From positions 6,050,001 through 6,114,000 of the forward strand of contig NZ_CP134605.1 of NCBI RefSeq assembly GCF_031844685.1: a stretch of DNA of 64,000 nt. The letters are read 5' to 3'. The notes under the pieces were generated by a model. That model did not search any database, had not been told where the DNA came from, and saw only the letters and a program-made list of their open reading frames with translations. Both the position numbers and the translations under genes were made by a program. This document shows, one piece after another, positions 10,454 through 21,222 of this stretch (its first letter is position 1; each line of letters starts with the position of its first letter). Source of the DNA: Streptomyces sp. ITFR-21 (GTDB lineage: Bacteria; Actinomycetota; Actinomycetes; Streptomycetales; Streptomycetaceae).

Positions 10454-10831
10454 ATGCAGGAAGAAACCGCCCGGTCCGCGATCGACACGTTCATCTCCGC
10501 GTTCAATGCCTCGGACGACGGCTATGTGACTGCGCTGCTCTCCCAGGCCCTCACCTCGGACGTGGTCTTCTGGGGACCGTTGGGCCGCAGTGAGGGGATC
10601 GAGGCGGTCGAGCGGTTCGTGCTGGACATCCGGCGCCACCCCGCGGGGACCGGCACGATGGTGCGCTGTTCGGCGGTGGACATGCCGGACGAGTGGGCCC
10701 GGTACCGGTGGGTCTTCACGACGCCGGACGGAGGCCCCCGCCTGGCGGGAACGGACGTCGTCCATCTGCGGCGGAGCCTCATCGACCAGGTCATCGTCTT
10801 CGCGGGGGAGATCGAGCCGTCCGCCTCCTGA
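10454..10831 (+). CDS. SnoaL/NTF2-like protein
   Basis: A 125-residue protein with the cone-shaped NTF2/SnoaL fold signature: an N-terminal helix with FISAFNASDD, VVFWGPLGRSEG in the middle, and a beta-rich C-terminal half. Members range from polyketide cyclases to hydrolases and hydroxylase partners, so the function cannot be set from sequence. It is the first gene upstream of the 7-deazapurine cluster but is 600 bp away, so membership is uncertain. Confidence 0.7.
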   Translation: MQEETARSAIDTFISAFNASDDGYVTALLSQALTSDVVFWGPLGRSEGIEAVERFVLDIRRHPAGTGTMVRCSAVDMPDEWARYRWVFTTPDGGPRLAGTDVVHLRRSLIDQVIVFAGEIEPSAS

Positions 10832-11431
10832 GTCATTCTCCTCCGGCGCCGTCCTTCTCCTGAACCGGCCCCGTTCGGGGCTCCGGGTCTGCCCAGCCGA
10901 GATTATCCGCACAACGCTTCGGTCGTCCGCGCTTGGCCACGAGCGGACCGATTTCGCCCCTCGGCCGGGGTCGGGGTCGGGGCCGGAGTCGGGGTCGGGG
11001 TCGGTGGATTCCCCAGGTCTTGGTGTGCTGGAAGGTGACTCCACTTCGACCAGCGGTTTTCGTGTCCGCGGCTCGCCGTGGGGGGCGGTGGCGGGCGCGG
11101 TCCGCGGCGCCGCGCGCCGCCCGTCGGCGATCTTGCCGGGCCGGGCCCCGGAGGCGACGGCGGACAGGGCCGGCGCCCCGCCGGGCGGGACCTTCTTCGC
11201 GAGGTAGGGGTCGGCGGCGGCCGGGCCGCCCGGCGGATCGGCGAGCCCGGAGACGGAGGACCCGATCGCGCCCGCCGCACGGTAAAATGGCACGGCGTCC
11301 GCCGGCTTCCCGCGCACGGCGACCACGGGGACGCGCAGCCGCGGGGACGGTGGAGCCGCACGGATCCGGGCCGGGAAGGTCCCCTCGACTTCCGGTGCGG
11401 ACGGGCGCCCGTCGGAAGAAGGGGACCGATC
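10832..11431. other. Intergenic region with GGGGTC repeats
   Basis: About 600 bp with no supported gene. A run of GGGGTC-type hexamers with two variant units covers about 10968-11004. The 3' part probably carries the promoter of the sulfotransferase gene, but no clear -35/-10 pair is visible. Confidence 0.6.
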
Positions 11432-12184
11432 GTGTCTTCGAGGACCGGTGCCGACCGCCTGGTGCCGTCGCCCGTGTTCATCCTGAGCCCGATCCGTTCC
11501 GGGTCGACGCTCCTGCGGTGCATCCTGGACACGCACAGCAGGATCCGCGCGCCCCACGAACTGCATCTGGCCGACGTCGCGGTCCGGCTGTCCAGCCCGC
11601 ACGCCGAGTTGGCGGTGAAGACCTCCGGGCTCACCGTCCCGGAGATCGAGCACCTGCTGTGGGACCGCATGCTCCACCGCGAACTGGTCCTCAGCGGCAA
11701 GGACGTCGTCGTCGACAAGACGCCCGACAACCTGATGCTGTGGCGCCGGCTCGCCGAGTGCTGGCCGCGGGCCCGGTACGTCTTCCTGGTCCGCCACCCG
11801 CTGCACATCCTGGAGTCGGCCCTGGCCGGAATACCCGACCAGAGCCCGGCCGAGATCGAGAAAATGGTGGCGGCGTACCTGCGGGAGCTCGCGGCGGCCC
11901 GCCGTGAACTGCCCGGACCCACTGTGCGGTACGAGGACCTGACGGCCGACACGGAGACCGTGGTCCGCCGGGTCTGCGCCCACCTGGACGTGCCGTGGGA
12001 GCCCGGGATGCTCGCCTACGGCACCGTGGACCACGGTCCGTTCGTGCCGGGGATCGGCGACTTCACCGAGAAGATCAGGAGCGGTGTGGTGCTCCCGGGC
12101 CGCGGACTGCCCGCCGACTCCGAGGTGCCGCCGGGCCTGATCGCCGCGTGCCGGGCGTTCGGGTACCTGGCGGCCCCCGGCTGA
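11432..12184 (+). CDS. Sulfotransferase
   Basis: A 250-residue PAPS-dependent sulfotransferase. The 5'-phosphosulfate-binding loop PIRSGST is near residues 14-20 and the 3'-phosphate-binding segment RYVFLVRHP near residue 108, followed by conserved RYEDL near 164. The GTG start was chosen for GAAGAAGGGG just upstream and for the loop being close to the N-terminus, as in the family. It heads the gene run leading into GT8 and the preQ0 genes, suggesting that the cluster product, or a precursor sugar, is sulfated. The acceptor is unknown. Confidence 0.8.
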   Translation: MSSRTGADRLVPSPVFILSPIRSGSTLLRCILDTHSRIRAPHELHLADVAVRLSSPHAELAVKTSGLTVPEIEHLLWDRMLHRELVLSGKDVVVDKTPDNLMLWRRLAECWPRARYVFLVRHPLHILESALAGIPDQSPAEIEKMVAAYLRELAAARRELPGPTVRYEDLTADTETVVRRVCAHLDVPWEPGMLAYGTVDHGPFVPGIGDFTEKIRSGVVLPGRGLPADSEVPPGLIAACRAFGYLAAPG

Positions 12185-12310
12185 CCGTCCGGCCGGCGGC
12201 GCGCCCGGCTCCGGCGAGGACGCGGGGCATCCGCCCCGAGGCCGCCGGCTCCCGGCCGGCGCCGGGGTGACCTTCCGATCCGACAGGGCCTGTGCGATGG
12301 AGGACGACCG

Positions 12311-13219
12311 GTGGATGCGAGCGCTGACGGCGTGGTCCTGTGCTTCGACTCCGCCTACGTCTGGCCGGCGTGCGTGGCCGTCCACTCGGTCGTCCGCACC
12401 TGGTCGTCCCCCGGGCCCCTGAACATCTACTGCCTGTGCGACTCCGGCGTCACCGCGGCGGACCGGCTCGCCGTCGAGTCGGTGGCGCGAGGGGCGAACA
12501 CCCGGCTGCGGTTCATCGACGTGGAGATAGCGGTCCCGGAACTGCGCGTCGGGCACGTCAGCGCGATGACGTACGCGCGCCTCCTCGCCCCGGAACTGAT
12601 CGACGCCGCCCGACTGGTGTACCTCGACTGCGACATCGTCGCCTGCGCCAGCGTCTCCGCGCTGCTGCGCCCGATCGCCGCGGACTATCCGATCGCCGCG
12701 GCCCGGGACGTCTACGGACCCGAACTCGACGCACCGCACATCGCCGCCGCCCGGTTCCCCTTCGGGCGCCGGTCGGGGGCGTTCCCCTACTTCAACGCGG
12801 GCGTGCTGGTGGTCGACGTCGAACGATGGCGGCGGCAGGGGATCACCCGGCGGGCCACGGCCCTCATGCGCGACCCGGACTGGCGTCCGGTGCTGGAGGA
12901 CCAGGACACCCTCAACCACGTGGTCGACGGCCGGTTCGAGATGCTCGACCCGCGTTGGAACGTCGTACCGGTCGACTTCATCAAGCGGAGCTTCGGCCGG
13001 ACGGCCATCCCGGGGGACCGCTATGTGCCGGCGGAGTACCAGCGCGATCTTGAGGACGCTCCGTGGATCGTCCACTACCTGACCGACCGCAAGCCGTGGC
13101 TGGTGGACTTCGGGGACGACCCGCTGGGCCGGCTGTGGCACGAGACCGCGGCCGGGACGGCGGACGTGCTCGCCGGGGCCCGCGTCCCGCATCCGGCGCC
13201 GCGGTCGCGTGAGCGGTGA
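12311..13219 (+). CDS. GT8-family glycosyltransferase
   Basis: A 302-residue retaining GT-A enzyme using a nucleotide sugar. The metal-binding DxD appears as YLDCDIV near residues 103-109. FPYFNAGVLVVDVERW near 158 and HYLTDRKPW near 255 match the GT8 signature blocks. The GTG start has GGAGGA eight bases upstream. It lies between the sulfotransferase and queD and is in the same orientation, so it is a candidate glycosylating enzyme of the cluster. Donor and acceptor cannot be read from sequence. Confidence 0.85.
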   Translation: MDASADGVVLCFDSAYVWPACVAVHSVVRTWSSPGPLNIYCLCDSGVTAADRLAVESVARGANTRLRFIDVEIAVPELRVGHVSAMTYARLLAPELIDAARLVYLDCDIVACASVSALLRPIAADYPIAAARDVYGPELDAPHIAAARFPFGRRSGAFPYFNAGVLVVDVERWRRQGITRRATALMRDPDWRPVLEDQDTLNHVVDGRFEMLDPRWNVVPVDFIKRSFGRTAIPGDRYVPAEYQRDLEDAPWIVHYLTDRKPWLVDFGDDPLGRLWHETAAGTADVLAGARVPHPAPRSRER

Positions 13220-13223
13220 TGGT

Positions 13224-13263
13224 GTGACCGGTGACCGGTGACCGGTGACCGGTGACCGGTGAC
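13224..13263. repeat. Tandem GTGACCG, about 5.7 copies
   Basis: Exact 7-bp units start just after the GT8 stop. They are the first of two adjacent tandem arrays in the 313-bp spacer before queD. Confidence 0.9.
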
Positions 13264-13300
13264 AGCCCGGACCGCCGGCCACCGCCGTATCGCCCCGTCG

Positions 13301-13380
13301 CCGTACTGCCGTACTGCCGTACTGCCGTACTGCCGTACTGCCGTACTGCCGTACTGCCGTACTGCCGTACTGCCGTACTG
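13301..13380. repeat. Ten exact tandem copies of CCGTACTG
   Basis: Ten perfect 8-bp units (80 bp) without a mismatch. The array is flanked on both sides by the related CCGTATCG. Perfect identity points to recent expansion and likely length variation between strains. No spacers are present, so it is not a CRISPR. It sits 150 bp upstream of queD and could affect its promoter. Confidence 0.95.
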
Positions 13381-13532
13381 CCGTATCGCCGGGCGCCTCC
13401 GTGCCCGTCCCGGCGACGCGTGCCGCCCGGGGCCGGCGGTTCCCCCTTCGGAGGACGGTCGGCGCTGTCTCGGTCCGCACCGTGATGTGCGGTTCCGTCC
13501 CGCTCGCCACCATGGACGCGGGAGGTGCGGCG

Positions 13533-13898
13533 ATGACTTTTCGCATCAGCAAGGAGTTCCACTTCTCGGCCAGCCACCGGCTCGACGGACTCGCCGACGG
13601 GCACCCGTGCAGCCGGCTGCACGGCCACAACTACGTCGTGGAGCTGGAACTCTCCGCGGCGGCGGACGCTCTGAACGACGTCGGCTTCGTACGCGACTAC
13701 GGCGAGCTGGGCGAGTTCGGCGCATGGCTCGACCGCGAGGTCGACCACCGGCACCTCAACGACGTCCTGGCCGACCGCAACCCGTCGGCGGAGAACCTCT
13801 CGCGCTGGCTGTACGAGCGGTGGCAGCCGCGCTACCCCGAGCTGAGCTCCGTGCGGGTCTCCGAGACGCCGAAGACCTGGGCGGAGTACCGCCCGTGA
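13533..13898 (+). CDS. queD: 6-carboxy-tetrahydropterin synthase
   Basis: Converts 7,8-dihydroneopterin triphosphate to 6-carboxytetrahydropterin, the second step to preQ0. The 121-residue protein has the zinc-binding histidines in FHFSASHRL and LHGHNY and the catalytic cysteine in the PCSRLHGH segment, with DHRHLN further on. ATG 13533 was chosen for GGAGGT eight bases upstream; an upstream in-frame ATG at 13512 lacks one. Its stop overlaps the queE GTG (GTGA), so the two are translationally coupled. Confidence 0.93.
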   Translation: MTFRISKEFHFSASHRLDGLADGHPCSRLHGHNYVVELELSAAADALNDVGFVRDYGELGEFGAWLDREVDHRHLNDVLADRNPSAENLSRWLYERWQPRYPELSSVRVSETPKTWAEYRP

Positions 13899-14655
13899 CG
13901 GCGCGCCCGGCGGCGAACAGCGCGGGAGGTGATGCCGCCGCAGGACCGAAGCTCGTGGTGAACGAGATCTTCGGCCCCACTTGACCGTCCAGGGAGAGGG
14001 CCCCTCGGCCGGGCAGCGCTGCGCGTTCGTACGCCTCGGCGGCTGCAACCTGTCCTGCCGGTGGTGCGACACCCCGTACACCTGGGACTGGACCGGCGTC
14101 GGCGACTCCGGCGTGGCCTACGACCCGCGCCGGGAACTCCACCCGCTGCCCTGGCGCGAGGTGTTCGGACGGCTGCTGGCCTACCGGGTGCCGATGGTCG
14201 TCGTCTCCGGCGGCGAACCGCTCAGCCAGCAGAGCCGGCTGGTCCCGCTGGTGCGCGCGCTCGCCGGGACCGGGCACCGGATCGAGATCGAGACCAACGG
14301 GACCATCGCGCCCCGGCCGGAACTCGTCGGCGCCGTACGGTTCAACGTCTCGCCCAAACTGGCCCACTCCGGCGACCCGCAGGCACGCCGGCTGGTCCCC
14401 GGGGCACTCGCCGCGCTGGCCGCCGCACCCGGTACCGCGTTCAAGTTCGTCTGCCGGACCGCGGCCGACCTCGACGAAGTGGCCTCGATCGTCGAACGCC
14501 ACGGCATCGGCCCGGTGTGGATCATGCCCGAGGGGCGGGTACCGCAGGAGCTGGACCGCAACCTGCGCGCACTCGCCGACGAGGTGGTCGCCCGTGGCTG
14601 GAACCTGACGACCAGACTGCACATCGCCGCATGGGGAAACCGGAGGGGTATATGA
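13895..14655 (+). CDS. queE: 7-carboxy-7-deazaguanine synthase, frame interrupted near 13981
   Basis: A radical-SAM enzyme contracting the pterin ring to 7-carboxy-7-deazaguanine. The iron-sulfur motif is CNLSCRWC, followed by DTPYTWDW and the SAM-binding VVSGGEP. The conserved N-terminal strand KLVVNEIFGPT starts from the GTG at 13895 that overlaps the queD stop. It then meets a TGA at 13982-13984. The rest (TVQGEGPSAG onward) is one frame away and could restart at the TTG at 13981, which overlaps that stop as TTGA. Either the gene has an indel, or translation restarts or slips there. The remainder is intact and ends overlapping folE. Confidence 0.85.
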
Positions 14656-15236
14656 CAACGACGACGGGTGAGCCCGAGGAGGGGCGGCTGGCCCGCGACC
14701 CGCTGGAGGAGGTGGCCCGCCGACTCCTGGTGGAGATAGGCGAGGACCCGGACCGGGACGGCCTGAAGGAGACCCCCGGCAGGTTCGCCCGCTGGTGGCG
14801 GGAGTTCAGCCAGTACGACGCGGGCGCCGCCGACACCCGCTTCCCGCTGCACACCCAGGGGCAGATCGTCGTGGTCTCCGACATCAACGTCTGGTCGCTG
14901 TGCGAACACCACCTGCTGCCCTTCTCCTGCGCCCTCACCATCGCCTACAAACCGGACGGCGACGTGCTGGGCCTGTCCAAGTTCGCCCGTATCGCCCACC
15001 GCCACGCGCACCGGCTCCAGGTCCAGGAACGCCTCATCCAGGACATCGCCCAGGAGCTGACCGCCGTGACCGGCTCGCCCGATGTCGCGGTGATCGGCCA
15101 GGGCGAGCACCTGTGCATGAGCATGCGGGGCGTACGCACCCCGGCGCTGGTGACCTCCTCGGTGTTCAAGGGGATCTTCGAGGAGTACGGCCCGGCCCGC
15201 CAGGAACTCATCGCCACCGCCTTCCCGCGACGATGA
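14652..15236 (+). CDS. folE: GTP cyclohydrolase I
   Basis: Makes dihydroneopterin triphosphate from GTP, the entry step of the 7-deazapurine pathway. The 194-residue protein has the zinc site in CEHHLLPF, the second zinc cysteine in HLCMSMRG, and the conserved GVRTPALVTSS. It starts at an ATG that overlaps the queE TGA (ATGA). A copy placed in a que operon, as in toyocamycin-type clusters, is normally a pathway-dedicated paralogue of the housekeeping folate enzyme. Confidence 0.93.
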   Translation: MTTTTGEPEEGRLARDPLEEVARRLLVEIGEDPDRDGLKETPGRFARWWREFSQYDAGAADTRFPLHTQGQIVVVSDINVWSLCEHHLLPFSCALTIAYKPDGDVLGLSKFARIAHRHAHRLQVQERLIQDIAQELTAVTGSPDVAVIGQGEHLCMSMRGVRTPALVTSSVFKGIFEEYGPARQELIATAFPRR

Positions 15237-15252
15237 CGCGACAGGAGCGCCC

Positions 15253-16452
15253 GTGAAGCCCGTGACCATCGCCCTCGTCCTGCTGACCCACAACCCCGAC
15301 GAACCCGCCGGGGTGGAGCGCGCCGTCGCCTCCCTCGCCGAGGGACTGCGCGAACTCGGCCACCGCGCGGTGATCGTCGCCGCCGGTCCGGCCACCGCCT
15401 CCGACGGCCCCGACCTGGTCCGCCTGACCACCCTGTCGCTGCCCAGGCCGATGCTCTTCGACGACCTGCCACGGCTGCTGGCCGACCCCGAGCCCGTCCG
15501 GCGCGAGGTCCTCGGCCTGCTCACCGGCATCGGCGCCGACGTGGCCTGCTGGACCGACGCGGTGGTGGGCCTGGGATACCTCAACCCCGCCCCGCCCGGG
15601 ACGCGCACCGCGCTGATGCTCCACTTCCTGCGGGTCGACGAGCCCATCGCGCAGAGCCTGGCCCACCGTCCCGACACCGTCATCACCCCCAGCCCGTTCC
15701 TCACCGGGGAGGCGGCCCGCGCGGGACTGGACACCAACGGCTGGCACGCGCTGCCCAACGCCCTGCTGTGCCGTACCGCCCCGCCGGCCGCGGACGAGCG
15801 CGAACGGCTCCGGCGCACCGGCCCGGTACGGATCCTGGGGCGCGCCGACCCGTCGAAGGGCATCGCGGAACTGCTCAGGGCCTGCCCGCCGGACCTGGGG
15901 CGGCCGGTGGAGATCGTGCTCGCGGCGGCCGGATTCGAGCTGTGGCCCGGTATGCAGGACGAAGTGCTGCGCGAATGCCGGGCGCTGGCCGCGCGGCTGG
16001 CGAACGTCGAGATCCTGCCCGCCGTCCCGTGGTCCGAGGTGCAGCCCTTCCTCGCGGGCGCCGCCCTCGCCCTGGTCCCCTCCACCAGCCCGGAGACGTT
16101 CGGCAACGTCGCCGCCGAGGCGCTGTCGGTGGGCACCCCCGTCGTCGGCTACGGCTTCGGCCACCTCCCCGTGCTCACCGGCACGGCGGGACGTATGGTC
16201 CCCCTGGACGTGGCCGGCGGCTTCGGCCATCTGCCGCCGCTCACCGGCTCCACCCGGAAGGTGATCGACTTCGAGGAAGGCGCGGCCCGGCTGTGGCGGG
16301 CCACGACGGATCTGCTCGCCGACGCCGACGCCTACCACGCCGCCGCGCGGCAGGCGCCCCTGCAGGTCGCCGCGCACACACCCGCCGAGGTGGCGCGGGA
16401 GTTCCTCCGGATCACCCTCGGCCCGGAGGAACGGCCGGCCGCCGACGCGTGA
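15253..16452 (+). CDS. GT4-family glycosyltransferase
   Basis: A 399-residue GT-B glycosyltransferase. The N-terminal half has an early Rossmann-type strand (LVLLTHNPDEPAGVERA). The C-terminal donor-binding half has RILGRADPSKGI near residue 193 and the E-x7-E motif in SPETFGNVAAEA near 280. It starts 16 bp after folE, so it belongs to the preQ0 operon. It is the best candidate for attaching a sugar to the deazapurine, as clusters of this type without a phosphoribosyltransferase must do. Sugar and position are unknown. Confidence 0.85.
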   Translation: MKPVTIALVLLTHNPDEPAGVERAVASLAEGLRELGHRAVIVAAGPATASDGPDLVRLTTLSLPRPMLFDDLPRLLADPEPVRREVLGLLTGIGADVACWTDAVVGLGYLNPAPPGTRTALMLHFLRVDEPIAQSLAHRPDTVITPSPFLTGEAARAGLDTNGWHALPNALLCRTAPPAADERERLRRTGPVRILGRADPSKGIAELLRACPPDLGRPVEIVLAAAGFELWPGMQDEVLRECRALAARLANVEILPAVPWSEVQPFLAGAALALVPSTSPETFGNVAAEALSVGTPVVGYGFGHLPVLTGTAGRMVPLDVAGGFGHLPPLTGSTRKVIDFEEGAARLWRATTDLLADADAYHAAARQAPLQVAAHTPAEVAREFLRITLGPEERPAADA

Positions 16453-16468
16453 CCGGGGCGCCCGCTCG

Positions 16469-16500
16469 CCGCGGGTCCTCCCGCCCCCGGCGGGCCGCGG
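16469..16500. terminator. Bidirectional hairpin between GT4 and queC
   Basis: The inner stem CCCGCC-CCC-GGCGGG (16480-16494) is nested in outer CCGCGG arms. It lies between two convergent genes, which suits a shared factor-independent-type terminator without a clear U-tract. Confidence 0.55.
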
Positions 16501-17232
16501 TCAGCGTGTCTCGCCGGGAGCGGTGAACACCGTCACGTCGTCGCGGTACTCCGTCGGATCGGTCAGCCCCGCCAGCTGGAAGGCCTCGCGCCGCTCGTAA
16601 CAGGTCCCGCACACCCCGCAGTGCACCTCACCGCCCTTGTAGCACGACCAGCTGCGCTCCAGCGGCGCCCCCAGCCGGGTGCCGTGCGTGGCGATGTCGG
16701 CCTTGGACCAGTCCATGAACGGCGCCTGGACCAGCGGGGTGGCGAAGCCCTCGTTGGCCACCGCGACCAGCTCCCGCAGCGCGGCCACGAAGGGCGGGCG
16801 GCAGTCGGGGTAGATGAAGTGGTCACCGGAGTGCATCCCCAGCGCCACCGTGCCCGCCCGCACCGCGACCCCGACCGACACCGCGACGCTGGCCAGTACC
16901 GCGTTCCTGTTGGGTACGACCGTGGCCCGCATCGACTGCTCCGCGTAGTGCCCGTCGGGAACCGAGACGCTGTCGTCGGTCAGCGCCGATCCGCCGAGCA
17001 GCGCCCCGAACCCGCTGAAGTCGACGACATGGTGCGCGGCGCCGTAGTGCGCCGCGATCTGCCGGGCCGAGTCGATCTCCCGGCGGTGCCGCTGCCCGTA
17101 GTCCACGGTCACGGCGACGAGAGCGAACCGCAGTGCCGCGTAGTGCGCCATCAGCACGGTGGAGTCCATGCCTCCGGACAGGACCACCACAGCGGTGAAC
17201 GGATCCGACGTACTGGTGTCGTGCTGCTCCAT
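16501..17232 (-). CDS. queC: 7-cyano-7-deazaguanine (preQ0) synthase
   Basis: Converts 7-carboxy-7-deazaguanine to preQ0 with ATP and ammonia. The 243-residue protein has the PP-loop SGGMDST near residue 20 and the four-cysteine zinc site CYKGGEVHCGVCGTC near 205-219. The ATG at 17232 has GGAGG six bases upstream; an adjacent GTG at 17235 is less well spaced. It is convergent with the queD-queE-folE-GT4 operon and completes the GTP-to-preQ0 set in one locus. Confidence 0.95.
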   Translation of the reverse strand: MEQHDTSTSDPFTAVVVLSGGMDSTVLMAHYAALRFALVAVTVDYGQRHRREIDSARQIAAHYGAAHHVVDFSGFGALLGGSALTDDSVSVPDGHYAEQSMRATVVPNRNAVLASVAVSVGVAVRAGTVALGMHSGDHFIYPDCRPPFVAALRELVAVANEGFATPLVQAPFMDWSKADIATHGTRLGAPLERSWSCYKGGEVHCGVCGTCYERREAFQLAGLTDPTEYRDDVTVFTAPGETR

Positions 17233-17413
17233 CACAGGCCTCCGGGGTGAGTTCCGGGTGGGTGCGGTGTCGGGGACGGCCGCCGGCCCGACGCGCGCGC
17301 CCAGTGTGCCGCCGGGCGTGCCGCCCGCACATCCCGGCCGGATGCCGAAGGATGCCGGGCGGCGGTCCGAAGCGCGGGCGCCCGGCCTCGGACCGCCGCC
17401 CGGCGGGCCGGCG

Positions 17414-20341
17414 TCACCGGGCGACCGGGGTCCCGTCGGTGAGCAGCGTCCACAGCCCCGGGTTGCGGAACGCCAGCGGGAAGTCGCCGCGTCCGCCGAT
17501 GCCGAGCTTGCGGTACGCGCTGGACAGGTGCAGCTCGACCGTGCGGCGGGTGATCTGCCGGGTCGCGGCGATCCGCTTGTTGGTCAGGCCGCGCATCGCG
17601 TCGACCAGGATCTGCCGCTCGCGCGGGGTCAGCGCCAGCACACCGCGCAGCGAGACGTACTGCGGGGCGCGCTCGTCCGTGCTGAGCAGCTGCTGTCTGA
17701 CCCGGGCGGCCAGGGCGCCGGCCCCGCACCGCTCGGCCAGCCGCGCGGCCCGGGTCAGGGCGGCCACCGCCTCCCGGGGCCGGTCCAGCGCGGTCAGCAG
17801 GCAGCCCAGGTCGCCCAGGGCGTGCGCCAGGTCGTACGGGCCCGGCACCGTTTCGAGCAGTTCGACCGCCTCGCGCAGCAGCCGCTCGCCCTCGGCGCCG
17901 CCCGACACGCCCCCCAGAACCCGCAGGGCCCGGCCGCGTTCGTACGCGGACTCCGTCGCCTCGGCGTACCGCAGCTGCTCTAAGGCCAGCCGCCGGGCCT
18001 CCTCGGCCCGGCCCACCTGGTCGAGCAGCTGGACCCCGTGCATCCGCCACGCCACGGTGCCGGTGGCCCGCAGCCCCGCCTCCTCGCCGCGGGCGCGCAG
18101 CTCGGCCAGATCCCGCCCGGCGGCCGGGAGGTCGCCGGCGGCGGCCCACAGCCGGGCCCTGGCCAGCAGCACGCTCCGGTAGTACCACCCGGCCGGCAGC
18201 TCACCCAGCTGCCGGTGGCGGCGCAGCAGCGCCTCGGCCCCAGGGGCGTCGCCCCGGCTGAGCAGGGTGTCGGCCAGCAGCCCCACGGCGCTCACCAGCA
18301 GCGGGTCGTGCGGGTGCGCCCCCCGGACTGCGGTGGTCTCCAGTGCTTCGGCCAGGAGCCGCTGGGCGGCGGGCAGACCTCCCTCGGCCAGTGCGATCCG
18401 CGCCCGCGCCAGCAGCAGCGCCGTGCGCCGGGGCTCGGGCCGGCCGTGCGCGGCGGCGCCGAGGCGGCGCGCCTGGGCGGCGGCCTCCGCATGCCGGCCG
18501 GCTTCCGCGAGTACGGTCAGCGCGGCCGGCAGCGCGGGCGGCTGCAGGTCCAGTTCGTCGATATCCCGGCCGAGCGCCCACCGCGCCCGGCGTACGGACT
18601 CCCGCGGGTCCTCGTCGACGAGCCAGTGACAGAAGGCACCGACGGCGGTCGCCGCCGCGTGCAGTTCACCGCCGCCGGCGGGAACGTGCCCGGTGCCGGT
18701 GCCGGTGCCGGTGCCGGTGGCGGTGGCGGTGGCGGGAGTGTGCCCGTCGGGCGGCGGGGGGAGCGCGGGCAGGTCCTCGACGAGCTTGGCGGTGGAGGCC
18801 GGCGGTGACTCGAACAGCCGCGAGACGACGTCGTGCAGCCGCGGCCAGCCGTGGAACCCCGTCCCCTCGACGACCGCCGCCACCCGGTCCAGTACCCGCT
18901 GCCCGTTCCCGGCCGGACCCACCCCGTACAGGGCGTCGCTGATCCGGCCCAGCAGACGGCGGCGCGTGGTGTCGTCGGTGGCGCGCGCGAGCATGGCGAC
19001 GGCCGAGCCGAGTCCGGCCGCCGGGTCGATACAAATGTGGACGTCGGCGAGTTCGAGGGCGGCCCGCAGGTGCTCGGCGCCGGAGGCCGTCTGCACGGCG
19101 AGCCGGAGGCAGCGCAGCGCGCGGGCGTCGTCGCCGGCGGCCCGCGCGGACCCGGCGGCCCGCCGCAGCACCCCGGCGGCCCACGCGCCCTCCGGCGGGA
19201 CGGTCGAGGCGACCAGGTGGTCGGCGATCCACTCCGCCGGCGCCTGGCGCTCGTACAGGTACGCGGCGGTGGCCAGGTGCGCCGCGTTGCGGGCCATCAG
19301 CGTCATGCCCCCGGTGAGGGCGTTGCGCAGCAGCGGGTGGCGCAGCCGCAGCGCGTTGTCGTCCTCCACCAGCCGCATCCGCACCAGCAGGTCGAGGGCG
19401 GCCAGCGTGCCGGTCAGCTCGACGCCGCTGAGCCGCGCGACCAGCGGGGTGTCCGCGCTGCCGTGGGTCTGCGCCACCGCGATCGTCCCGGCCAGTCGCG
19501 CGGCGGCCGGGTCCAGCCGGCCGGCCCGCCCGGTCATGAGGCCGGCCACGGCGGGCAGCACGGCCGTCTCCAGCCGCGCCGGGTCCCGGGCCTCGTGCGG
19601 GTGCTCCCGCATCCAGCCGGCCAGTTCGCCCAGCAGGAACGGGTTTCCGGCCGTCAGCCGGTGACACGCGGCGGCGAGTCCGGCCGCCGGTCCGCGCGGC
19701 AGCACGGTACGCAGCAGCAAAGCCGTCTCCCGCTCCGACAGCCCGCTGAGCGCCGCCTGATCCGCGTCCAGCAGCAACTCGGCCAGTTCCGCCGGTGCTT
19801 CTGGCGGCTCACCGAGCCGCAGCGACACCGCCAGCACCACCGGGTGCTGCGCGCACACCTCCACCACCCGCTGCAGGAAGGCCAGCGACCCCGCGTCCGC
19901 CCAGTCGGCGTCGTCCACGGTCAGAACCAGGGGCGCGCCGGACGTCAGCGCCGCGACCGCGCCGCCCACCGCCGCCAGCAGCCCGGGATCCGGCTCCGGG
20001 CGGGCGTCCGGGGTCCGCAGCCGGTCACGGGCGTGGCGCAGGCGCGCCTCCTGCGGGCTGCCCGGCGCAAGCCGGCCGGCGAGCGCCCCGGCCAGCTGGC
20101 CGACCAGCGCCGCCGGGGTGTGGCGGTCCTGCCTGCGGCACACCAGCGCGACAGTGGCGCTTCCCCGCTCGCGCGACGCGCGGGCGAAGGCGCCGAGCAG
20201 GGCGGTACGGCCCACCCCCGGCTCGCCCGTCACCACGTACCGGACCGGGCCGGCCTGGGTGCTCACCCGGCAGGCGTCGTGCAGCGCGCGCAGCTGTTCG
20301 AGCCGGCCCACGAACGGCGGCCTCGTCCCGGCGCGCGTCAC
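17414..20341 (-). CDS. LAL-family LuxR transcriptional regulator
   Basis: A 975-residue large ATP-binding LuxR regulator. A degenerate Walker A (GEPGVGRT, arginine for lysine) is near residue 43 and Walker B LVLTVDDADWAD near 140. A long helical TPR-like middle follows. The C-terminal LuxR helix-turn-helix is LTPRERQILVDAMRGLTNKRIA near residues 905-925. The middle holds a Gly-Thr run coded by GCCGGT-type repeats near 18690-18725. The GTG start overlaps the methyltransferase stop (GTGA). LAL regulators are typical cluster-situated activators; ToyA of toyocamycin is one known parallel. Start and boundaries are well supported by the overlap. Confidence 0.88.
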   Translation of the reverse strand: MTRAGTRPPFVGRLEQLRALHDACRVSTQAGPVRYVVTGEPGVGRTALLGAFARASRERGSATVALVCRRQDRHTPAALVGQLAGALAGRLAPGSPQEARLRHARDRLRTPDARPEPDPGLLAAVGGAVAALTSGAPLVLTVDDADWADAGSLAFLQRVVEVCAQHPVVLAVSLRLGEPPEAPAELAELLLDADQAALSGLSERETALLLRTVLPRGPAAGLAAACHRLTAGNPFLLGELAGWMREHPHEARDPARLETAVLPAVAGLMTGRAGRLDPAAARLAGTIAVAQTHGSADTPLVARLSGVELTGTLAALDLLVRMRLVEDDNALRLRHPLLRNALTGGMTLMARNAAHLATAAYLYERQAPAEWIADHLVASTVPPEGAWAAGVLRRAAGSARAAGDDARALRCLRLAVQTASGAEHLRAALELADVHICIDPAAGLGSAVAMLARATDDTTRRRLLGRISDALYGVGPAGNGQRVLDRVAAVVEGTGFHGWPRLHDVVSRLFESPPASTAKLVEDLPALPPPPDGHTPATATATGTGTGTGTGHVPAGGGELHAAATAVGAFCHWLVDEDPRESVRRARWALGRDIDELDLQPPALPAALTVLAEAGRHAEAAAQARRLGAAAHGRPEPRRTALLLARARIALAEGGLPAAQRLLAEALETTAVRGAHPHDPLLVSAVGLLADTLLSRGDAPGAEALLRRHRQLGELPAGWYYRSVLLARARLWAAAGDLPAAGRDLAELRARGEEAGLRATGTVAWRMHGVQLLDQVGRAEEARRLALEQLRYAEATESAYERGRALRVLGGVSGGAEGERLLREAVELLETVPGPYDLAHALGDLGCLLTALDRPREAVAALTRAARLAERCGAGALAARVRQQLLSTDERAPQYVSLRGVLALTPRERQILVDAMRGLTNKRIAATRQITRRTVELHLSSAYRKLGIGGRGDFPLAFRNPGLWTLLTDGTPVAR

Positions 20342-21222
20342 GAGGCCGTGCCCGGACGGGCGACCAGCACCGTGCCCTGGTCGCCGACGGCGTGCGGGCG
20401 GTGCGCGAAGTGCCGGCGCAGCTCGGGCCGGAGCGCGTCGCGCATCTCCGCGACGCGGGGATGGTCCGCGTACCAGAAGTCGGCCATCATCGTGGCCGCG
20501 GCGTTGATCCTGGCGTCCGGCGAGACCTCGGGAAAGTGCAGAGCGGCCTCCGTCCGGTACAGCGAGAAACGACCGAACCCGTTTTCGGACAGTGTTGTCG
20601 CCGCGGCCGAGAGGAGATACCCCTGGTGGTCCTCGGGCTCGCCGGCGACCGGCACGCAGGCGCGGTTGAGCAGGCTCACCAGTTCGTTGCCGGGGCCGCC
20701 GCCGATCAGCAGGATCCTGGCCCGCGGGCTGGCGGCGTCGCACACCCGGGCCAGCTCGCGCACGGATGCCTCCAGGTCGTCCACGTAGGGCAGCACCCAC
20801 GCCGCGAAGACCGCGTCGAACGACGCGTCGGGAAACGGCAGCGACTCGGCGTGGCCGGGGATGACGTCGATCGAGCCCGTTCCGCCGGTCTCCGCCCCGG
20901 TGGCCAGCGTGGCGACCCGGCTGCCGTGGGGCTCGATCGTCGTGCAGTGCCCCACCTCGGCCGCCACGGCGCGGGTCAGCTCGCCCGTCCCGCCGCCGAC
21001 GTCCAGCACCCGGCGGTTGGCGGCGGTCGCGCCGCGCACCAGGGCGATCTCCTCGCGGCGCTCCAGCCGGCCGGTGAAGTTCAGCCACCCGTCGTGGCTC
21101 AGCCGGTGCGGCCCCCGGTACCGGGTGGGCATGCGGTCGGCCGGCCCGCATAACGGGTGGTTGCGCACCTGGAGTGCGTCGAGTGCCGGTGTGCCGTCGG
21201 TCGGGCTGGTTTTCCCTGTCAC
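20338..21222 (-). CDS. Class I SAM-dependent methyltransferase
   Basis: A 294-residue methyltransferase. Motif I is VLDVGGGTGELTRA near residues 71-84, the acidic post-I region is TTIEPHG near 95, and motif III lies around ARILLIGGGPG near 168. The GTG start has AAGGA seven bases upstream. Its stop overlaps the LAL regulator start, so both are translated together. Whether it modifies the deazapurine product, for example by O-methylation, or is unrelated cannot be told from sequence. Confidence 0.8.
   Translation of the reverse strand: MTGKTSPTDGTPALDALQVRNHPLCGPADRMPTRYRGPHRLSHDGWLNFTGRLERREEIALVRGATAANRRVLDVGGGTGELTRAVAAEVGHCTTIEPHGSRVATLATGAETGGTGSIDVIPGHAESLPFPDASFDAVFAAWVLPYVDDLEASVRELARVCDAASPRARILLIGGGPGNELVSLLNRACVPVAGEPEDHQGYLLSAAATTLSENGFGRFSLYRTEAALHFPEVSPDARINAAATMMADFWYADHPRVAEMRDALRPELRRHFAHRPHAVGDQGTVLVARPGTAS

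Follow-up and report, generated by a model that had tools for sequence, protein, structure and literature searches.

The huimycin (hui) cluster published from Kutzneria albida comprises genes of seven classes, namely a LAL regulator, QueC, a methyltransferase (MT), QueD, QueE, FolE and a glycosyltransferase (GT), with the last four in the order D-E-F-G (PMC7439116). Dapiramicins A and B are known as products while their cluster is unpublished (PMC7439116). The tubercidin cluster of S. tubercidicus was described with nine proteins of 125, 139, 199, 385, 194, 422, 168, 314 and 374 residues, and S. coelicolor M1154 produced tubercidin when given a cosmid containing it, the negative control being the empty-vector strain (PMC6112128).

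Natural ribosomal bypassing was listed in a 2016 review of recoding for T4 gene 60, a candidate from a Streptomyces phage and yeast mitochondria; no natural in-frame stop-hop was known, and wider interest was expected there should a regulatory use come to light (PMC5009743). Queuosine or radical SAM genes are not mentioned in the main text of a survey of frame transitions in 1106 prokaryotic genomes (PMC3711429), and no earlier report of a queE frameshift, of a queE bypass or of the tubB break was found in the open-access literature.

In this work a window of 64,000 nucleotides from Streptomyces sp. ITFR-21 was analysed, in which the interval 10454-21222 contains a deazapurine cluster. The more important result, as judged from sequence, concerns not the cluster itself but a conserved candidate translational bypass in its queE gene.

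Gene content and class of the cluster

The run opens on the + strand with a gene for a SnoaL-like small protein (10454-10831; Pfam PF12680, a weak match with E 2.4e-5), followed by a PAPS-type sulfotransferase (about 11462-12184, the start being approximate; Sulfotransfer_3, E 8.8e-26) with both the PIRSGSTLL and the VRHPLHILES motif in its translation, and by a GT8 family glycosyltransferase (12311-13219; PF01501, E 2.4e-32). The same strand carries QueD, a 6-carboxytetrahydropterin synthase (13533-13898; PTPS, E 3e-32; TIGR03367), the queE gene described below, FolE, a GTP cyclohydrolase I (14652-15236; PF01227, E 3.6e-49), and a GT4 family glycosyltransferase in the position of HuiG (15253-16452; PF13692 and PF00534). 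On the - strand are placed QueC, a preQ0 synthase (16501-17235; PF06508, E 3.9e-59; TIGR00364 above the cut-off), a LAL-type LuxR regulator in the position of ToyA/HuiA (17414 to about 20323; AAA_16 and GerE) and a class I methyltransferase in the position of HuiC (20338-21222; generic UbiE-like matches). Every gene named in a previous, sequence-only reading of this DNA was recovered by Pfam and NCBIfam matches and translations, and its statement that phosphoribosyltransferase and nitrile hydratase are missing held for the interval 10454-21222, where no match to these two proteins or to GMP reductase was obtained with Pfam. No Rfam elements were found in the window at 9-22 kb. Two perfect tandem repeats, GTGACCG x5.7 (13224-13263) and GCCGTACT x10.8 (13300-13385), lie between the GT8 gene and queD and could be phase-variable or regulatory.

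Compared by class and order, all seven hui gene classes are present in the interval, the queD-queE-folE-GT order is identical, and both sets are free of a phosphoribosyltransferase (PMC7439116). The window differs in having additional GT8, sulfotransferase and SnoaL-like genes, and in the queC, LAL and MT genes, which are located on the opposite strand at the far end. Enzymes related to the GT4 protein (40-71% identity) adjoin preQ0 genes in most loci found, close relatives of the cluster possess the same core without ribosyl-transfer genes, and the methyltransferase is 62-67% identical to those that neighbour the LAL or the GT4 gene in loci L021, L024, L025 and L138. The GT8 enzyme has a relative (72-74% identity) in one related cluster, the huimycin-like L141, the gene order of which is MT-LAL-QueC-GT8-QueD-QueE-FolE-GT4-epimerase. 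The tubercidin cluster (tubA-I) has the queD-queE-folE core in common with the window, and its tubB-type queE has the break at the identical residue (L122); it also includes GMP reductase, phosphoribosyltransferase, UbiD and Nudix genes, all four of which are missing from the window (PMC6112128). A cluster of the toyocamycin/tubercidin type was rejected, as GMP reductase and phosphoribosyltransferase, present in L121-L133, are absent from the interval. The predicted membership of the interval in the huimycin-type 7-deazapurine glycoside clusters is well supported as a class, and the same can be said of a huimycin/dapiramicin-like glycoside as the class of its product.

From the gene content, FolE, QueD, QueE and QueC would convert GTP to preQ0, which would then probably receive an O-methyl group as well as a sugar, the latter from the GT4 enzyme; a second sugar may come from GT8, and perhaps a sulfate is added. 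Dapiramicins A and B have the same expected chromophore, with the sugar on the 2-amino group, and the two glycosyltransferases of the window would fit a disaccharide; no sulfate is known in them, the comparison being one of products only. In L025, L021 and L024 an FkbM-like methyltransferase, judged by sequence, is placed between GT4 and QueC, accompanied in L025 by a GT2-like enzyme recognised in the same way, an arrangement that would fit a dapiramicin-like O-methylated disaccharide.

For neither the sulfotransferase nor the SnoaL-like gene was a relative found in the other deazapurine loci examined. Sulfotransferase relatives from elsewhere (about 50%) occur in mixed, unrelated contexts; an APS-kinase-like gene accompanies two of them. 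Since the sulfotransferase recurs in no related locus, sulfation of the product is a guess from colinearity; a sulfotransferase beside a huimycin-type core is an unusual product lead, though unproven. The product proposed in the sequence-only reading stood as a preQ0-derived secondary metabolite (there is no TGT, see below) with kinship to huimycin (gene set and order), whereas a sulfate and a second sugar on it are putative. Apparent internal stops noticed in relatives of the sulfotransferase fall outside the conserved match. In L155 and L159 such relatives are part of a conserved run together with genes for an APS-kinase-like and a radical-SAM-like protein; this looks like another sulfated natural product locus.

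The interrupted queE gene

TGT (PF01702) is absent from the whole 7.36-Mb genome in a search that matched 14/14 positive controls, and a queuosine or tRNA role is excluded thereby. The sequence-only reading had called a tRNA role unlikely and had named tgt/queA elsewhere as the finding that would speak against this view; the empty genome-wide search for TGT agrees with it. Its complete GTP-to-preQ0 set was correct as far as the presence of folE, queD, queE and queC is concerned, however queE is split over two frames. This interruption, the most unusual feature of the interval, was missed there.

The first part of queE (13895-13984, + strand; coordinates checked) begins with a GTG that overlaps the queD stop and is an ORF ending in PKLVVNEIFGPT before TGA. 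It holds the conserved QueE start KLVVNEIFGPT in one frame, ended by the TGA at 13982-13984. The proposed take-off codon ACT (Thr; 13979-13981, +) is followed directly by this TGA, and relatives are arranged alike; the interruption reads TGACC (13982-13986, +), and its last three bases, ACC, form the proposed landing triplet. The QueE sequence resumes 5 nt after NEIFGPT in the other frame, with the second part (13987-14655, +; frame -1 to the first) starting VQGEGPS and containing the radical-SAM motif CNLSCRWCDT. This part has a Radical_SAM match and is matched by TIGR03365 from profile position 12 only. A TTG overlaps the stop (TTGA), which makes coupled re-initiation formally possible for the window gene. 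The break falls within the first beta strand of the QueE model (residues 4-15; mean pLDDT 94.5). The E, F, G, P and T of this strand are invariant in 27 diverse QueEs, and the strand belongs to the match with solved QueE chains.

A second complete preQ0 set was found in the same genome at about 3.085 Mb (L051, G000:C1:3085918-3086589), and its queE is interrupted too. With a profile built from 27 full-length QueEs, the whole genome yielded only two QueE genes, each matched only over the part of the profile that begins at position 14. The genome of the window and that of G006, its nearest relative within the genus, have two separate complete preQ0 sets each, with every queE interrupted. The L051 set consists of QueC, QueD, interrupted QueE, FolE, a class III aminotransferase and a 2OG-Fe(II) oxygenase, and is conserved in G006 and G008.

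The interrupted queE family and its selection

In this QueE clade 33 genes with the interruption and 18 without it were collected by searching the genus, the family, the class and a sample of Streptomyces; two near-duplicate pairs among the former leave 31 distinct. A 34th, with the insert TAGGGCT, is located on a Streptomyces chartreusis plasmid, where RefSeq annotates it from a GTG after the gap. All 34 genes are broken at the identical residue, with a gap of 5, 6, 7 or 8 nt (5 nt n=7, 6 nt n=5, 7 nt n=16, 8 nt n=5 in the 33), and G006 has the same break as the window with a different gap. The more distant QueE clade, of FQGEG type, is intact and shows no interruption. Sequencing error was ruled out, as the break recurs in many species and in both queE copies of two genomes.

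In the 11 codons before the break pN/pS amounts to 0.126 in interrupted vs 0.171 in intact genes, and in the 20 codons after the gap to 0.178 vs 0.167. No other stop is present in any of the 31 interrupted genes tested (31/31), and the Fe-S motif CNxxCxWCDT is kept in all of them. Purifying selection on both sides and the lack of a second lesion argue that the genes are not in decay. On the protein tree the intact/interrupted character needs 4 changes and the frame class (intact, or gap mod 3) at least 12, so it can be said that the frame drifts and the protein is kept. Both protein sides are in register with intact QueE in every interrupted gene despite these changes, which indicates that the joining is indifferent to frame; when the gap is skipped, the canonical FGPT-VQGEG length results every time. 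For the G-E of QGEG just after the gap (window 13993-13998), the codons GGA and GAA are used in 16/31 and 20/31 interrupted vs 1/17 and 1/17 intact genes, a preference that is a possible mRNA signal.

The tubercidin cluster as a natural experiment

Eleven tubercidin-type loci were found with queD, queE, folE, GMP reductase, phosphoribosyltransferase, UbiD and Nudix genes, often together with a kinase and an MFS gene, and queE is interrupted in all 11. One of them, L122 (G192), reproduces all nine published tub lengths, which none of the other tub-type loci does (n=11), and it appears to be the published tubercidin cluster, the identification being based on the nine matching lengths and not on deposited sequence. 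The insert in its queE is TAGCGCC, and the published TubB of 139 aa equals the longest ATG/GTG ORF left after this break. Such a TubB is without CxxxCxxC, the motif required for radical SAM enzyme function. Since the fragment has no Fe-S motif and the cluster is nevertheless productive, the simplest reading, host S. coelicolor QueE aside, is that in vivo the cell gets past the break.

How the two parts of QueE may be joined

In 31/33 genes a stop (15 TGA, 14 TAG, 2 TAA) occupies the A site directly behind the take-off Thr codon; the remaining two have AGA or ATA, with frequencies of about 2.1 and 0.6 per 1000 codons in their loci. With a stop or a rare codon in 33/33, a slow A site is implied for all of them. 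The triplet preceding resumption fits NC[C/G/T] without exception (18 GCC, 11 ACC, 2 TCC, 1 GCG, 1 GCT), of which GCC (18) and TCC (2) are imperfect matches to the Thr anticodon; in the window take-off at ACT would be paired with landing at ACC. When 12 downstream positions were scored for pairing with the tRNA reading the take-off codon, this triplet came out alone at the top for re-pairing with tRNA-Thr in 28/31 genes, compared with a mean of 3.4 for shuffled inserts (max 10 in 2000) and of 11.4 with the first three bases kept (max 17), these counts being non-independent and inflated by the shared ancestry of the genes, which the shuffles ignore. No clear stimulatory RNA structure or nascent-peptide signal was seen, and folding z-scores differ little. 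Two hairpins were discarded as signals: the 5' hairpin CTCGT..ACGAG rests on codons common to intact genes, and GGCCC..GGGCC around the gap is formed with some inserts only.

It is quite probable that QueE is made by a short ribosomal bypass across 5-8 nt, here called a stop-hop. In the window the ribosome would read NEIFGP and the Thr codon ACT and then meet UGA in the A site; peptidyl-tRNA-Thr would release the mRNA, slide 5 nt and re-pair at ACC, and reading would resume at GUC to give the canonical FGPT-VQGEG protein. The joined QueE would yield the tryptic peptide LVVNEIFGPTVQGEGPSAGQR.

Stop-start translational coupling is frequent in Streptomyces operons. It is exemplified by drrAB, cited in PMC3711429, and on such a basis QueE could be composed of two chains, the first ORF ending at its stop, the second chain starting by coupling at an overlapping NTG (ATGA, TTGA or CTGA), and the peptide and the chain assembling afterwards. 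An NTG in the right frame within 12 nt is indeed present in 9/33 genes (TTGA in the window and in L024, ATGA in L044), however in 20/33 the second frame has no ATG, GTG, TTG or CTG after its previous stop, for which reason re-initiation is rejected as a general explanation. Moreover, in the 16 genes with a 7-nt gap the overlap is out of frame, beta strand 1 is the site of the break, and L045 and L108 are without a stop after FGPT, so that two-chain QueE is unlikely. Stop readthrough is excluded by most second parts being in a different frame, and gaps of 5, 6, 7 and 8 nt do not agree with a constant frame relation. Ordinary programmed frameshifting, by -1 or in another single frame, would account for the -1 relation of the window and the other genes with 5- or 8-nt gaps, but 6- and 7-nt gaps need other frames inside the same clades, no slippery heptamer was seen and the frame class changes at least 12 times on the tree. 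It is scarcely credible as an explanation, and because of the 6- and 7-nt gaps it is rejected for the window and G006.

By standard decoding these genes are broken, and a second, rearranged cluster of S. iranensis (L028) looks degenerate, as would be expected if queE were a pseudogene and the clusters silent relics. Against this stand the strong purifying selection before and after the break, the lack of any second lesion, the constant position of the break at one residue and the productivity of a tubercidin cluster with this break (PMC6112128). Both clusters in one genome would also have to be dead, and the pseudogene reading is very improbable. Joining at the transcript level, by polymerase jumping or excision of 5-8 nt, would be blind to frame as well, and a hairpin around the gap is possible with some inserts, such as TAGGGCC after GGCCC. 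Nevertheless, such joining would need neither a stop or rare codon after Thr (33/33) nor a triplet pairing with tRNA-Thr (28/31), inserts such as TGACC make no hairpin with GGCCC, and it is considered quite improbable. The interruption is thus an observed and conserved feature, and from the codons around it we infer that the skipping takes place at translation and not in the transcript. The stop-hop would serve a whole queE clade, the members of which occur in deazapurine clusters from the Streptomycetaceae and from one other family of actinomycetes.

Comparison with known bypassing and significance

T4 gene 60 resembles queE in the stop directly after the take-off codon and in resumption past a matching triplet in another frame, but its gap has 50 nt and a nascent-peptide signal takes part (PMC5009743), whereas in queE the gap of 5-8 nt is variable in length and is conserved in a family of chromosomal enzyme genes. 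In Magnusiomyces mitochondria, as in queE, the skipped insert restores the canonical protein, the A-site codon is slow or unused, and imperfect take-off/landing matches are tolerated; there many genes of one mitochondrion are concerned, in contrast to one gene family in many bacteria (PMC5009743). A stop-hop might gate the committed radical-SAM step at the level of translation, with QueE tuned to the translational state, a tentative suggestion that is regarded as possible rather than probable. If gating were true, the stop-hop, long kept and free in length and frame, would represent conserved and possibly regulatory bypassing in bacterial chromosomal genes.

Natural bypassing is known from very few cases, and here dozens of candidate genes are offered. 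They belong to Streptomyces that can be cultured and to antibiotic pathways that are easily read out chemically, and the cluster of one family member is already functional in a laboratory host. The stop-hop would explain the publication of TubB as a 139-aa fragment. Annotation pipelines mis-start the interrupted genes, and the result is relevant to the refactoring of deazapurine clusters with a recoded queE.

An interrupted queE was also observed in L123 and L124 (TAGCACC, TAGCGCC), toyocamycin/sangivamycin-like clusters with LAL, queD-queE-folE, GMP reductase, PurB-like, PurA-like, phosphoribosyltransferase and QueC genes and a protein with a nitrile-hydratase-like VCTLCSC motif. Their genomes carry a second queE, which is intact (L105, L104).
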